Shown: positions 25,651-46,567 of the stretch, piece by piece
Position numbering within the stretch: position 1 is the stretch's first letter
Layout: each line of letters starts with the position of its first letter
Assembly (NCBI GenBank): GCA_002215645.1
Contig: NGFI01000002.1
Location: forward strand, 248,001-312,000
Length of the DNA: 64,000 bases
Reading direction: 5' to 3'
DNA from: Gemmatimonadetes bacterium 2013_60CM_65_52
GTDB lineage: Bacteria > Gemmatimonadota > Gemmatimonadetes > Gemmatimonadales > Gemmatimonadaceae
Program-made: the position numbers and the translations under genes
The notes under the pieces: model-generated
The model's input: the letters and a program-made list of their open reading frames with translations, nothing else
The model's database searches: none
Told to the model about the DNA's origin: nothing

Positions 25651-25758
25651 GGAGTTCTGTAAGAGTTGCGCCCATGCACTGAAGGATTCGGGCCAGCGTG
25701 CCCCTCCCTAGCCCCACTCTTGCTCCAGAGCGAGGTCGGCTGTCACCGATCAGGCATC

Positions 25759-26562
25759 ATGTCCGGCCAATCCACGCTGGAGCTTCTGTCCCAGGACACC
25801 AACAACTTCTATCGGCGGACGCTGCACGTGCTGAGCGACGCCGCGGTGCCGTTCATGGTCGGCGGCTCGCACGCGTTCCTGGAATACACGGGCATCGTTC
25901 GCAACACGAAGGACTTCGACGTCTTCCTGCGCCGCACCGATCTCGATCGGGCCATGCGCGCGCTCGGCGACGCGGGCTACCGGACGGAGCTGACCTTTCC
26001 CCACTGGCTTGGCAAGGCGTGGCAGAACGAAGACTTCGTGGATCTCGTCTTCAGCTCGGGCAACGGCGTCTGCGTCGTGGACGACGTCTGGTTCGAGCAC
26101 GCCGTCGAGAGTCAGGTGCTCGGCATGCCCGTGAAAATCGTGCCCTGTGAAGAGCTGCTGTGGCAGAAGTCGTTCGTCATGGAGCGCGAGCGTTACGATG
26201 GCGCGGACGTGATGCACATCCTGCGCTCACGCGCGAGCGACATTCACTGGGGACGCTTGAGCGAGCGATTCGGGCCGCACTGGCCGCTGTTGTACGCGTA
26301 TCTCCTGCTCTTTTCCTTCACGTATCCGAGCGATGCGGCGTCCCTGCCGCCAGGCATCCTCGACGATCTCGCGAGTCGCTACGCCACGCTACGCTCGACG
26401 ACACCGACCGATCGGGTGTGCCAGGGCACGCTGCTCAGCAGAGCACAATATCTCGTGGACATCGGGCAGCACGGCTACGCGGATGCGCGCGTCGCGCCAT
26501 ACGGCCGCATGAGCGCCGAGGAAGTGATTTTCTGGACGTGGGCAATCGACCACGTCAAATGA
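25759..26562 (+). CDS. Nucleotidyltransferase-fold protein (unknown role)
   Basis: A 267-residue protein. Residues ~30-140 fit the minimal nucleotidyltransferase fold: VPFMVGGSHAFLEYTG (the GG/GS step), TKDFDVFLRRTDL (the paired carboxylates DFDVF) and a later FVDLVFSS strand that supplies another carboxylate. The C-terminal half is helical (YAYLLLFSFTYPSDA). This resembles antibiotic-type and AbiEii-like nucleotidyltransferases, but there is no adjacent antitoxin-like gene, so neither role is supported. ATG 25759 is preferred; the longer frame runs into unrelated upstream sequence. Confidence 0.7.
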   Translation: MSGQSTLELLSQDTNNFYRRTLHVLSDAAVPFMVGGSHAFLEYTGIVRNTKDFDVFLRRTDLDRAMRALGDAGYRTELTFPHWLGKAWQNEDFVDLVFSSGNGVCVVDDVWFEHAVESQVLGMPVKIVPCEELLWQKSFVMERERYDGADVMHILRSRASDIHWGRLSERFGPHWPLLYAYLLLFSFTYPSDAASLPPGILDDLASRYATLRSTTPTDRVCQGTLLSRAQYLVDIGQHGYADARVAPYGRMSAEEVIFWTWAIDHVK

Positions 26563-26595
26563 CGCTGAGGCGTCGCCATTTCGATCGGGCGTCAA

Positions 26596-26661
26596 GTACA
26601 GGATACGCTGTCTTACCGAGTGCCGGATACCGGGTACTGTCTTTCACTACTGGTCTTCACA
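26596..26661 (+). repeat. 66-bp dispersed intergenic repeat, copy A (heptamer-based)
   Basis: Matches 44211-44276 in the opposite orientation at 56 of 66 positions without gaps. Its core is a run of related heptamers: TACCGAG, TGCCGGA, TACCGGG, TACTGTC. It lies between the convergent 3' ends of the nucleotidyltransferase-like gene and the cytochrome gene. It is less GC-rich than its surroundings and has no coding potential. Confidence 0.8.
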
Positions 26662-26671
26662 AGCCCGCACC

Positions 26672-27568
26672 TCAGGTGGCTACCGGTTGCACCGTCCGCA
26701 GATAGAAAAAGATCGCCGTGATCTCGTCGTCGGTCATGTTCCGGAAGTGCCTCCACGGCATGGCCGCGTTCACCGCTGAGCCGTCGGGGCGTTTGCCCTC
26801 TCGCAAGAGTCGGCGGAAGTCCTCTTCCGTCCAGGTCTTCGTCGGGCCCGCCGGTGTCAAATTCGCCGCCGGCGGCCACTCGGGCGGACCGTTTGCTATC
26901 CTGCCACCATTCAGCTTGGGACCATGGCAGCCCTTGCAGGACACGCTAGCGAGGTACGCACCGTATCCCGCCATCGGCGTCCTCGAGACCGACAGGACGT
27001 GGAGACGCTCATGGTCGATGTGCTCCGCCTCGAGCAGCGGAATCTTGCCCGCGACCATCAGCGCGCGAGCCACCGGACCCACCGTCGAGAGCGGCAGTTC
27101 GTTGTCGACAGGTGGGATGGAACGAACGAATGCGATGACCGCCGCCAAATCCTCGTCCGACAGATTCGCGTAGTCGGTTGAGGGCATGATCTTGAGCGCC
27201 CGCCCCGTCGGCGCGAGACCGTGCCGGATGGCGCGATCGAAATCCGCGTCACTCAGCGTCGAGCCGACGCCACCTTTTCCGCGCGTGAGGTTCAAGGCGT
27301 AGATGCGACCGAACGCCGGATCGTCGATCATCTTGGTGCCGGCGAGGTTGTCGCCGTGACACGAGGTGCAGCCGCCCAGAGCATGCACGACATGCGCGCC
27401 TCGCGCGATCGTGGCGGAATCCCGCTGCACCGTCACGGGCTTGGCGACGACCGGCCACTCCTTGCGATATCTCGCTTCCGACGCGCCGTAGACGCCTGCG
27501 GCAAGCAGGAGCACGAGCGTCGCCAATCCGCCGGCCAGATAGCCGAGCCATTTTGCCACTCTGCGCAT
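26672..27568 (-). CDS. Diheme c-type cytochrome, membrane-anchored
   Basis: A 298-residue protein with an N-terminal membrane helix (about 8-30) and two cytochrome c domains in the periplasm. Heme motifs are CTSCH at 67-71 and CKGCH at 211-215. Likely axial methionines are in KIMPSTDYANLSDEDLAA and AAMPWRHFRNMTDDEI, the latter near the C-terminus. The layout resembles the cytochrome subunits of alcohol/aldehyde dehydrogenases and similar electron-transfer proteins. No dehydrogenase gene is adjacent, so the donor is unknown. Confidence 0.9.
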   Translation of the reverse strand: MRRVAKWLGYLAGGLATLVLLLAAGVYGASEARYRKEWPVVAKPVTVQRDSATIARGAHVVHALGGCTSCHGDNLAGTKMIDDPAFGRIYALNLTRGKGGVGSTLSDADFDRAIRHGLAPTGRALKIMPSTDYANLSDEDLAAVIAFVRSIPPVDNELPLSTVGPVARALMVAGKIPLLEAEHIDHERLHVLSVSRTPMAGYGAYLASVSCKGCHGPKLNGGRIANGPPEWPPAANLTPAGPTKTWTEEDFRRLLREGKRPDGSAVNAAMPWRHFRNMTDDEITAIFFYLRTVQPVAT

Positions 27569-43742: not shown

Positions 43743-44108
43743 TTACTCGGCCGCGACGGGCGCGGTCTTGGCCTTCATTTCCTTGATGCGCGTGGCCTTG
43801 CCCGTGAGGTGGCGCAGGTAGTACAGCTTGGCGCGGCGCACGCGGCCACGGCGCACGACGTCGATCTCTGCCAGCATGGGGCTGTGCAGCGGGAAGATGC
43901 GCTCGACACCTACACCGTTGGAGATCTTCCGGACCGTGAACGTCGCGCTCACGCCGGCTCCGCGACGCGCAATGCAGACGCCCTCGAAGGCCTGAATGCG
44001 CTCCTTCTCACCTTCCTTGACGCGAACGTTGACACGAACGGTGTCACCGGCGCGAAAGGGAGGGACGTCGCGGAGCCACTCTTTCTGGGTTTCGATGAAG
44101 GCATGCAT
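43743..44108 (-). CDS. rplS: 50S ribosomal protein L19
   Basis: A 121-residue ribosomal protein at the 30S/50S interface. The family core is clear: [91 protein letters not shown]. The gene begins with ATG at 44108 and has a promoter-like element and inverted repeat upstream rather than the usual direct trmD junction. Confidence 0.97.
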
Positions 44109-44136
44109 ATGACGCTCGGGGCAGGGCCCGGTTGGA

Positions 44137-44167
44137 GGCTAACTGATAGAGACTGGGGAAGTTAGCC
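44137..44167. promoter_or_regulatory. Inverted repeat GGCTAAC-N17-GTTAGCC at the rplS promoter
   Basis: A perfect 7-bp arm pair at 44137-44143 and 44161-44167. On the minus strand the first arm overlaps the proposed -10 TAACTT. It may be an operator or a leader hairpin; autoregulation of ribosomal protein genes by leader structure is known in general. Confidence 0.45.
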
Positions 44168-44187
44168 GGATTCGGGCTGGACGTCCA
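44159..44187 (-). promoter_or_regulatory. Putative rplS promoter
   Basis: On the minus strand TGGACG (44182-44187), 17 bases, TAACTT (44159-44164). The 12-base string TCCGGCTAACTT is identical to the one at the tRNA-Asn promoter. It would give a leader of about 44 bases before the rplS ATG. Confidence 0.5.
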
Positions 44188-44210
44188 GTGTTGGCAGGGC
44201 CCGAATAGCC

Positions 44211-44276
44211 TGCGAAGACCAGTAGTGAAGACCAGTATCCGGTATCCGGCACTCGGTAAACGAGCGTATCTGGTAC
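44211..44276 (-). repeat. 66-bp dispersed intergenic repeat, copy B (heptamer-based)
   Basis: The reverse complement of this stretch matches copy A at 26596-26661 at 56 of 66 positions, ungapped. It contains TACCGAG, TGCCGGA, TACCGGA heptamers and a 13-base direct repeat (GAAGACCAGTAGT then GAAGACCAGTATC on the plus strand). Confidence 0.8.
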
Positions 44277-44353
44277 GACCACCAACGCGTGGCTGCCAAC
44301 GGCGGAATGATATACAGCGACGCCCGACCCGAAAACGCAGTTACGGAATACTC

Positions 44354-44405
44354 CAATACCGAGTGCCGAGTTCCGAGTACTGGTGTTCCCTCCGGGTACT
44401 GCTGT
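44354..44405 (+). repeat. Heptamer array facing copy B
   Basis: Consecutive related heptamers TACCGAG, TGCCGAG, TTCCGAG, TACTGGT, then a shorter echo ending CCGGGTACTG. It runs in the opposite direction to copy B, so the two could pair as a long imperfect inverted repeat with about 80 bases between them. Confidence 0.65.
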
Positions 44406-44423
44406 TGTGTCGTTACTTGCTCG

Positions 44424-45905
44424 TCAATGCTCCTCCGCGCTGCCGAAAAGCAGCTCCACCTCGGGCCTGCTTTCCTCCGGCGCGATGACGTACACGTAGT
44501 CTCCGGGCTCGATGCGCGTGGAGCCCGACGGCGCAATCAGTGCCCCTCCCCGCTCGATCATGCTGACGGCGGCGCCCGTCGGAAACGGTACGTCGCGAAT
44601 ATGCGCGCCACTCACGGCAAGCTGCGGCGACACGAAGTAGCTGCGTAGCTCGTCGCCGAGATGCGAACGGACGTCCACCTCGATGGATGTCTTCGGCGGC
44701 GGAGGTGCGTCCGAACGGACGCCGAGCACTCGCGTCACCCATGGGACCGTGGCACCCGGCACCACCGCGCCGGCAACCACGATGAAGAACACCATGTCGA
44801 AGAGCTCGCGCGCGCCGGGCAACCTCGCCATGACGGGAATGGTGGCGAGCACGATGGGGACTGCGCCGCGCAGCCCCACCCAGCCGACGTACGCGGACTC
44901 GCGCCACTCATAGCGGAACGGCGCAAGCAACAACACGGTCACGAGCGGACGCGCCACGATGGCGAGGAAAATGGCGAGCGCAAGCCCGGTCCCCGCGACC
45001 AGCAGCAGCCGCGACGGATACACCAGAAGGCCGAGCAACAGGAACATCAACACCTGGCTGAGCCATCCGAGTGCATCGTGCACGCGCCTGATGCCGACCG
45101 CGTGCGGCAGGGTACGGGCGCCGAGCGTCATGCCGGTGAGATAGACGGCGAGAAATCCGCTGCCGCGAAGCAGCGTCGCGACGCCGAACGAGAGACAGCA
45201 AATGGCAAGTGTGAACGCGGGATAGAGGCCGGCGGCGGGCAGGCGGATGCGGAGAATGGCCCAATGCGCCGCGATGCCCGCTGCGAAACCAACCGCCGCT
45301 CCCACGGCAAGCTGCAAAGCGATTTCGCCGGCCAATGGAAGCGCAGCGAGATGGCCGCCTCCGATGAGCGCGGCCGTCAGCGACGTGGTGAGGATGACGG
45401 CCATCGGGTCGTTGAAGCCCGACTCGAGCTCGAGGGTGTGTCCCACGCGCTGCCGAAGCCGGGTGCCCGTGGCCTTCAGCACGGAGAATACGGCGGCGGC
45501 GTCCGTGGACGACACGATGGCGCCGAGCAGCAGTGCCTTCGTCCAGGCGATGCCGAGGGCGTGCGCAGCGGCCGACACGAGGCCGGTCGTGGCCAGCACA
45601 CCGAGCGTCGCGAGCACGATGGAGGGCGCGAGCACCGCGCGCGCGGCGCCGACCGGCGTGTTGAGCCCTCCGTCGAACAGAATCAGGACGAGGGCCGCCG
45701 TGCCCACGCGAAACGCGAAGTGATAGTCGTCGAACGCGATGTGGCCGAGTCCCTCGGTGCCCGCGGCGACGCCGACGAAGAGGAACAGCAGGGCGACTGG
45801 CACGCCGAATCGCGCCGACGCGCGGCTCAGGACGACACTGGACGCGAGCAGCGCGCCGAATGCCGTGAGCATCGCGGCCGTGGCAAACGGCTCGCCGGGG
45901 CTCAC
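44424..45905 (-). CDS. Cation/proton antiporter with TrkA-C domain (NhaP2/CvrA-like)
   Basis: A 493-residue CPA-type antiporter. About 12-13 membrane helices occupy residues 5-395, including the ion-binding region FNDPMAVILTTSLTAALIGGG (ND motif near 160) and SSTDAAAVFSVLKATGTRLRQRVGHTLELESGFNDPMA. A cytoplasmic TrkA_C/RCK_C domain lies at about 405-490 (YFVSPQLAVSGAHIRDVPFP... GDYVYVIAPEE). This fits K+/H+ antiport of the NhaP2 type. It starts with GTG overlapping the trmD stop and separates trmD from rplS, which are usually adjacent. Confidence 0.9.
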   Translation of the reverse strand: MSPGEPFATAAMLTAFGALLASSVVLSRASARFGVPVALLFLFVGVAAGTEGLGHIAFDDYHFAFRVGTAALVLILFDGGLNTPVGAARAVLAPSIVLATLGVLATTGLVSAAAHALGIAWTKALLLGAIVSSTDAAAVFSVLKATGTRLRQRVGHTLELESGFNDPMAVILTTSLTAALIGGGHLAALPLAGEIALQLAVGAAVGFAAGIAAHWAILRIRLPAAGLYPAFTLAICCLSFGVATLLRGSGFLAVYLTGMTLGARTLPHAVGIRRVHDALGWLSQVLMFLLLGLLVYPSRLLLVAGTGLALAIFLAIVARPLVTVLLLAPFRYEWRESAYVGWVGLRGAVPIVLATIPVMARLPGARELFDMVFFIVVAGAVVPGATVPWVTRVLGVRSDAPPPPKTSIEVDVRSHLGDELRSYFVSPQLAVSGAHIRDVPFPTGAAVSMIERGGALIAPSGSTRIEPGDYVYVIAPEESRPEVELLFGSAEEH

Positions 45906-46567
45906 GTCGAGTCGCTCGCCCCGCGTTCTCGCGTCAGCCGCAGTCCTTCGCGCTCACGCCACTCGGCGATGCGTGCGTGATCGCCGCTCAGCAGGACGTC
46001 AGGCACCGGATGGCCGCGAAACTCTGGTGGACGCGTGTAGCTTGGCGCGGACAATCCGCGTTCCCAGAACGAGTCGCTGAATGCGCTCTCGTGATCGGTC
46101 ATCGCGCCGGGCAGAAGCCGCACGGTGGCATCGATGACGGCGAGCGCAGCGGGCTCGCCGCCGGTCAGCACGAAATCGCCGAGTGACAACTCCTCGGTGG
46201 CGAGATGATCCGCGACCCGTTGGTCGACGTCCTTGTAGTGACCGCAGAGAATCGTCAGCTCGTCGCCCGCGGCGAAGCGCACGGCGTCGGCCTGCGTGAA
46301 CCTGCGGCCACGGGCGCTCATGAGGACAATCGGCGCGCGTACGTCCAGCGACTCGACGGCCTCGAAGAACGGCGGGGCCTTCATGATCATCCCTGCCCCG
46401 CCGCCGTATGGGTAATCGTCCACCGTGCGGTGACGATCGTGCGTGAAGTCGCGGAGATCGACGACGTTGTACGACACGAGCGCCGCGGCCGATGCGCGGG
46501 CCGGAATACTCAGCGCGAGCGGCGTGGCAAAGAACTCCGGGAAGATCGTGACGACGTTGATCTTCAC
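45902..46567 (-). CDS. trmD: tRNA (guanine-37-N1)-methyltransferase
   Basis: A 221-residue SPOUT methyltransferase making m1G37 to prevent frameshifting. Signatures are INVVTIFPEFFATPLALSI, RDFTHDRHRTVDDYPYGGGAGMIMKAPP near 40-70, LCGHYKDVDQRVADHLATEELSLGDFVLTGGEPAALAVIDA near 110-150 and YTRPPEFRGHPVPDVLLSGDHARIAEWR near 180-205. GTG start overlaps rimM. Standard order within the rpsP-rimM-trmD cluster. Confidence 0.97.
   Translation of the reverse strand: MKINVVTIFPEFFATPLALSIPARASAAALVSYNVVDLRDFTHDRHRTVDDYPYGGGAGMIMKAPPFFEAVESLDVRAPIVLMSARGRRFTQADAVRFAAGDELTILCGHYKDVDQRVADHLATEELSLGDFVLTGGEPAALAVIDATVRLLPGAMTDHESAFSDSFWERGLSAPSYTRPPEFRGHPVPDVLLSGDHARIAEWREREGLRLTRERGASDST

Follow-up and report, generated by a model that had tools for sequence, protein, structure and literature searches.

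A 66-bp sequence at positions 26596 to 26661 of the window (the whole 64-kb stretch of DNA analyzed here) belongs, as originally predicted, to a repeat family. The family is genome-wide, with about 50 extragenic sites biased to the 3' ends of genes. The interpretation that we favor, with roughly even confidence, is a lineage-specific, extragenic, non-autonomous miniature element, REPIN- or MITE-like, that derives from heptad arrays. Heptad repeats between genes have been described in a few bacterial groups but lack an explanation. In the family studied here, several genera have heptads particular to their lineage, and one species has a dispersed inverted element, apparently made from such sequence, without the REPIN transposase. 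This natural case allows one to ask how simple repeats turn into mobile elements and whether a REPIN-like population can do without a RAYT.

Two copies in the window

The 66-mer and the minus-strand sequence at 44211-44276 are identical at 56 of 66 positions (84.85% by BLAST, E = 6.4e-15 within the genome), in agreement with the original count. Copy A (26596..26661, plus strand) is a solo R arm, consisting of a 57-bp core (26596-26652) plus tail. As was stated before, it sits between two convergent 3' ends: those of a plus-strand gene (25759..26562; 267 aa, start uncertain and possibly at 25666), whose protein has no Pfam match and whose stop is 33 bp from the copy, and of a minus-strand gene with cytochrome c domains (26672..27559), at which the tail of copy A is directed.

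Copy B (44213..44276, minus strand; 56 of 66 positions identical to copy A across 44211-44276) is the R arm of a full inverted unit, whose partner had been missed earlier. A 66-bp loop (44277..44342), homologous in the same orientation to the loops of other units, separates it from an L arm (44343..44406, plus strand), a diverged variant (TACCGAGTGCCGAGTTCCGAGTACTGGTGTTCCCTCCGGGTACTGCTGTT) with a profile E value of 2.5e-7. The unit, 202 nt long, folds with a z score of -4.3. It occupies a tandem spacer between two minus-strand genes, rplS (ribosomal protein L19; 43743..44108), which follows copy B in the direction of transcription, and a gene for a Na+/H+ exchanger (antiporter) with a TrkA_C domain (44424..45905), whose stop codon lies 17 bp from the tail of the L arm. 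No intrinsic terminator (a GC hairpin followed by a T run) was found at 26400-26800 or 44000-44600, and an Rfam search of the window returned two tRNAs only, with no RNA family match at the repeats.

Size and anatomy of the family

In the genome (4.20 Mb in 14 contigs, 97% complete; Gemmatimonadaceae), the 66-mer gave 48 BLAST matches at E <= 1e-3, and a sequence-only profile built from 39 copies gave 77 matches at the same threshold, at 50 sites on 9 contigs. The family is thus far larger than the two copies first noticed, and it has a weaker counterpart in a sister species (see below). The predicted seven-base period in the core is borne out by the 39 aligned copies, in which core self-identity is 59% at lags 7 and 14 compared with 8 to 30% at the remaining lags between 2 and 13. 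The R module is a fixed 57-bp sequence, in which about 3.5 degenerate heptads (TRCCGRR) are followed by a non-heptad tail, TACTGGTCTTCACTACTG; its order is GTACCGGATACG, a few variable bases, and then TTACCGAGTGCCGGATACCGGGTACTGGTCTTCACTACTG. The non-heptad tails are common to the copies, and Tandem Repeats Finder did not call the window copies as tandem arrays.

Inverted units (L arm, loop, R arm) are present at 24 of the 50 sites, with L more diverged than R and with loops of 4 to 122 bp. The arm order is -+ in all 24, with the tails outward, and the +- order occurs in none. At 13 sites, R lies 3' of a second repeat, E2, with constant orientation and a similar junction, and two of these 13 composites carry an extra inverted E2 end past the R tail. 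Sites with neither an inverted unit nor E2, copy A among them, consist of an R arm by itself or, in the case of a direct duplicate, of a repeated arm.

The E2 repeat (GTCACCACTCTGAGACTCTCCGCCGCCGATGCCCCTGCGGCGATGGGACG..., starting with GTCACCACTCTGAGACTCTCCGCCGCCGATGCCCC) has 19 matches in the genome (for example, at the center of locus L167 and at L155, L157, L158, L028, and L014), and one copy near a tRNA gene (C2:218297) is reduced to a bare palindrome. Among 59 relatives, no copy of E2 was found save a weak partial match in G052. Tandem copies of a third repeat, CACCCATCAACCCGGTTT, exist in the loops of two inverted units, C2:388435-388539 (center of L169) and C13:82299-82410 (L040), and at about positions 1020-1080 of L040, tandem TTTTCTTTCGACG-like repeats adjoin an R arm.

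Placement relative to genes

Gene positions were taken from a simple coding-potential caller trained on the genome's own sequence and are approximate. No called gene is overlapped at 42 of the 50 sites; at the other eight, the overlaps are mostly of 1 to 46 bases, and the single overlap of 187 bases probably reflects an over-extended gene call. Tail edges face gene 3' ends in 50 cases and 5' ends in 24. Of the 3'-facing tails, 42 of 50 are within 40 bp of a stop codon (median, 9 bp), compared with 8 of 24 of the 5'-facing tails within 40 bp. Because window spacers of 60 bp or more have 29 3' edges and 33 5' edges, the 3'-end bias looks real, with the base rate coming from this one window and the gene calls being approximate.

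Sites are clustered: gaps of less than 5 kb number 8, where 2.8 would be expected. Local duplications were found at C13:59476-59725, C13:556432-556541, C12:72626-72914, and C4:16566-16746. The densest cluster (C4:10200-18200, L013) has four sites in 6 kb amid ordinary metabolic genes, including those for a transketolase, an aminotransferase, and a glycoside hydrolase; none of the six genes there encodes a transposase.

Conservation and folding

Loops are far less conserved than arms, yet when compared in a common orientation they resemble one another (mean local score, 16.3; shuffled loops, 11.9; reversed orientation, 12.4). Because loops, E2-R junctions, non-heptad parts, and a fixed orientation are common to the units, sequence comparison shows that they were copied as wholes and not born separately. 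Mutual identity of R arms is 0.851 in inverted units, 0.857 in single copies, and 0.857 in E2-R composites, an apparently star-like picture with equal identity in all contexts; doublets better conserved than singlets, the signature of REPINs, were not found (0.851 versus 0.857). Within R, 20 of the 57 positions are invariant against 2.4 expected, and the variance-to-mean ratio of substitutions is about 6. Such unevenness fits either a constrained recognition sequence or biased mutation.

Paired arms are no more alike within a unit than between units (0.792 versus 0.789; P = 0.35) and show no coevolution, which gives no indication of selection for pairing; selection for hairpin formation was accordingly rejected. 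R arms were chosen by their likeness to the consensus, and their higher mutual identity is partly built in. Inverted units fold much better than shuffled sequences (mean z, -6.0), as expected of any inverted repeat, whereas solo arms do not (mean z, -0.3). No consensus fold of the single arm was obtained over 39 copies, and the single arm is not a palindrome. In a test for target-site duplications, the mean longest match was 5.4 compared with 5.0 for mismatched flanks (P of about 0.02), with ill-defined element ends.

Distribution among relatives

Full-strength R copies were found, under strict filters, in this genome only among 179 genomes of the family. In a sister species (G005), there is a single, weaker inverted pair that is homologous, has the same tail, and likewise has its tails outward. 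Looser heptads (TRCYSRR three times) are present in 16 of 118 family genomes and in 12 of 35 genera; a backward-pattern control for TRCYSRR was also positive in a few genomes, above all in the heptad-rich G014. The heptad units vary by lineage (TACTGAG/TACTCAG, TGCCCGA, TACCCGA, and TGCTGAG). Where inspected, the heptads of relatives lie mostly in spacers, several of them directly 3' of stop codons, and those of G014 and G071 are inverted about a short loop or hairpin. In samples run through Tandem Repeats Finder, period-7 arrays are common in G014, G018 also has some, and none were called in G030 and G020. Long, near-perfect heptad arrays were seen in spacers of relatives at L241 (G070:C126), L240 (G014:C23), and L248; the longest, of the TGCTGAG type, is in G070 and spans around 300 bp. 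Regarding a phage or plasmid origin, no match was found in viral contigs (searched with one exact pattern), plasmids, or phages.

The interval from trmD to rplS (window positions 43743-46567) comprises the antiporter gene and a slot of 0.3 to 5.7 kb in this genome and four sister species. In the four sister species, the slot, which reaches from the antiporter gene to rplS, lacks the element and holds 1.6 to 5.7 kb of other DNA instead. A fifth relative, G009, has neither the antiporter gene nor the element, and its trmD-rplS gap is 1.05 kb. No clean empty site was seen at the copy B slot in the five relatives compared. The closest named relatives of the L19 protein come from Gemmatimonadetes/Gemmatimonadaceae metagenome assemblies. 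Just upstream of rplS, positions 44109-44170 of the window (gctaacttccccagtctctatcagttagcctcc, minus strand) look conserved in G009 by eye, and this segment is a possible L19 leader or promoter.

Proposed origin and spread of the element

The heptad arrays suggest themselves as the raw material for R, which would have arisen from the local arrays of the family as these expanded by slippage. Copies may then have spread by a transposition-like process acting in trans, with R as its putative recognition end, and would persist where insertion does least harm, that is, at gene 3' ends; the mobilizing enzyme may be lost. This mobile-element reading is favored by the 77 matches at 50 sites, the 24 units that are all -+, the orientation-specific likeness of their loops, the 13 E2-R composites with one orientation and a common junction, the overdispersed substitutions (R is conserved site-specifically while loops drift), the extragenic positions with tails at stop codons, and the confinement of full-strength R to this genome, with the weaker pair in G005. 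Against it, no mobilizing enzyme was found (Y1 is absent, and there is no transposase among the six genes at the densest cluster), neither a convincing target-site duplication nor a clean empty site was seen, and conservation is equal in solo and paired R arms, which picks out no single replicating unit. With arms about 85% identical, any spread must be old. A more specific version, to which we give only tentative credence, is that of a heptad-ended, REPIN-like population in the Gemmatimonadaceae, replicated in trans by a non-RAYT enzyme, the ends of which evolved from slippage-born arrays behind stop codons.

The main rival is a functional 3'-end element, protein binding or RNA, kept by selection behind genes after spreading by duplication, with a role in ending transcripts, stabilizing mRNA, or insulating convergent genes from each other. 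The strong 3'-end bias, the site-specific conservation in R, and the folding of paired units (mean z, -6.0) would all agree with such a function. However, neither window copy has a terminator-like site, arms that stand alone show no fold (mean z, -0.3), the folding of pairs is what any inverted repeat would give, with arms no more alike within units than between them (0.792 versus 0.789; P = 0.35), and the copy B slot has no element in four relatives of the same gene order or in the fifth without the antiporter gene. We regard this function as somewhat improbable. Polymerase slippage that creates a heptameric simple-sequence repeat separately at each site, with no copying between sites, would account for the heptad period and for the fact that 16 of 118 family genomes have tandem heptads, the units of which vary by lineage and which lie mostly in spacers where inspected; heptad slippage also has a precedent in the literature (PMC4692102). 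However, separate slippage cannot yield tails, loops, and an E2 junction that are non-heptad and yet common to copies, and Tandem Repeats Finder makes no array call at the window copies. Slippage is thus largely refuted as the route of dispersal, and as a full account it is unlikely, although the core itself probably arose in this way.

The original prediction had also pointed to a RAYT-type transposase, and this part did not hold. A classical REPIN population mobilized by a RAYT (Y1 HUH transposase) would share the inverted doublets with variable loop, the extragenic position, and the 3' bias, but Y1_Tnp has no match in the 97%-complete genome. Among 118 family genomes, 21 have Y1_Tnp, and 2 of these are among the 16 heptad-bearing genomes, about the number expected by chance. 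As the arms are moreover not palindromic and singlets are as conserved as doublets, we consider this explanation very unlikely; both a RAYT as mobilizer and a standard REP/REPIN were rejected. The least probable account, in our estimate, involves no transposase: an old repeat would have been both homogenized and scattered through homologous recombination, gene conversion, or template switching during replication. Equal R-arm identity across contexts (0.85 to 0.86), local duplications at several sites, and the clustering (8 gaps under 5 kb versus 2.8 expected) would suit it, but it alone fails to explain 50 largely unlinked sites or the outward orientation of the tails.

Comparison with known repeats

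Among the papers searched, none was found that mentions these sequences or deals with heptads in Gemmatimonas, in line with the initial remark that no published description was known. REPINs are doublets of REP sequences that form hairpins (PLoS Genet 2011, PMC3116915). The present element resembles them in its extragenic inverted doublets with one relative orientation, its less conserved spacer, and its additional singlets, but its arms are 57 bp long, built of heptads, and not palindromic, no RAYT was found, doublets are not better conserved than singlets, and a second composite form, E2-R, exists. The suggested likeness to REP sequences therefore stands for extragenic location, 3' bias, and inverted doublets and fails for the single copy, which is no palindrome; the element is REPIN-like in layout, yet it is not classed as a REPIN. 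With MITEs, it shares short, non-coding, dispersed copies with inverted ends (L and R arms at 24 sites); unlike for MITEs, no convincing target-site duplication was found, nor a parent transposon, with no transposase among the six genes at the densest cluster.

The nearest published parallel is the GGGNATC heptads of Xanthomonas, which lie in spacers near stop codons, form about 70 inverted pairs per genome, and have relatives in Nostoc (Rehm et al. 2015, PMC4692102). Both families are made of seven-base units that occupy spacers a short distance 3' of stop codons and form inverted pairs, whereas the sequence here differs and has no G-runs of the G-quadruplex kind. The proposed similarity to heptameric repeats thus applies to the Xanthomonas and cyanobacterial heptads only in part: unlike GGGNATC or STRR repeats, which are simple arrays, the element is a fixed 57-bp module in composite units, with non-heptad tails and homologous loops. 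The TAACTGA repeats of Beggiatoaceae, which are direct repeats mostly just upstream of start codons (MacGregor 2015, PMC4679880), and the cyanobacterial STRRs likewise form many intergenic heptamer sets; in contrast to TAACTGA, the units described here are inverted and lie behind stop codons.
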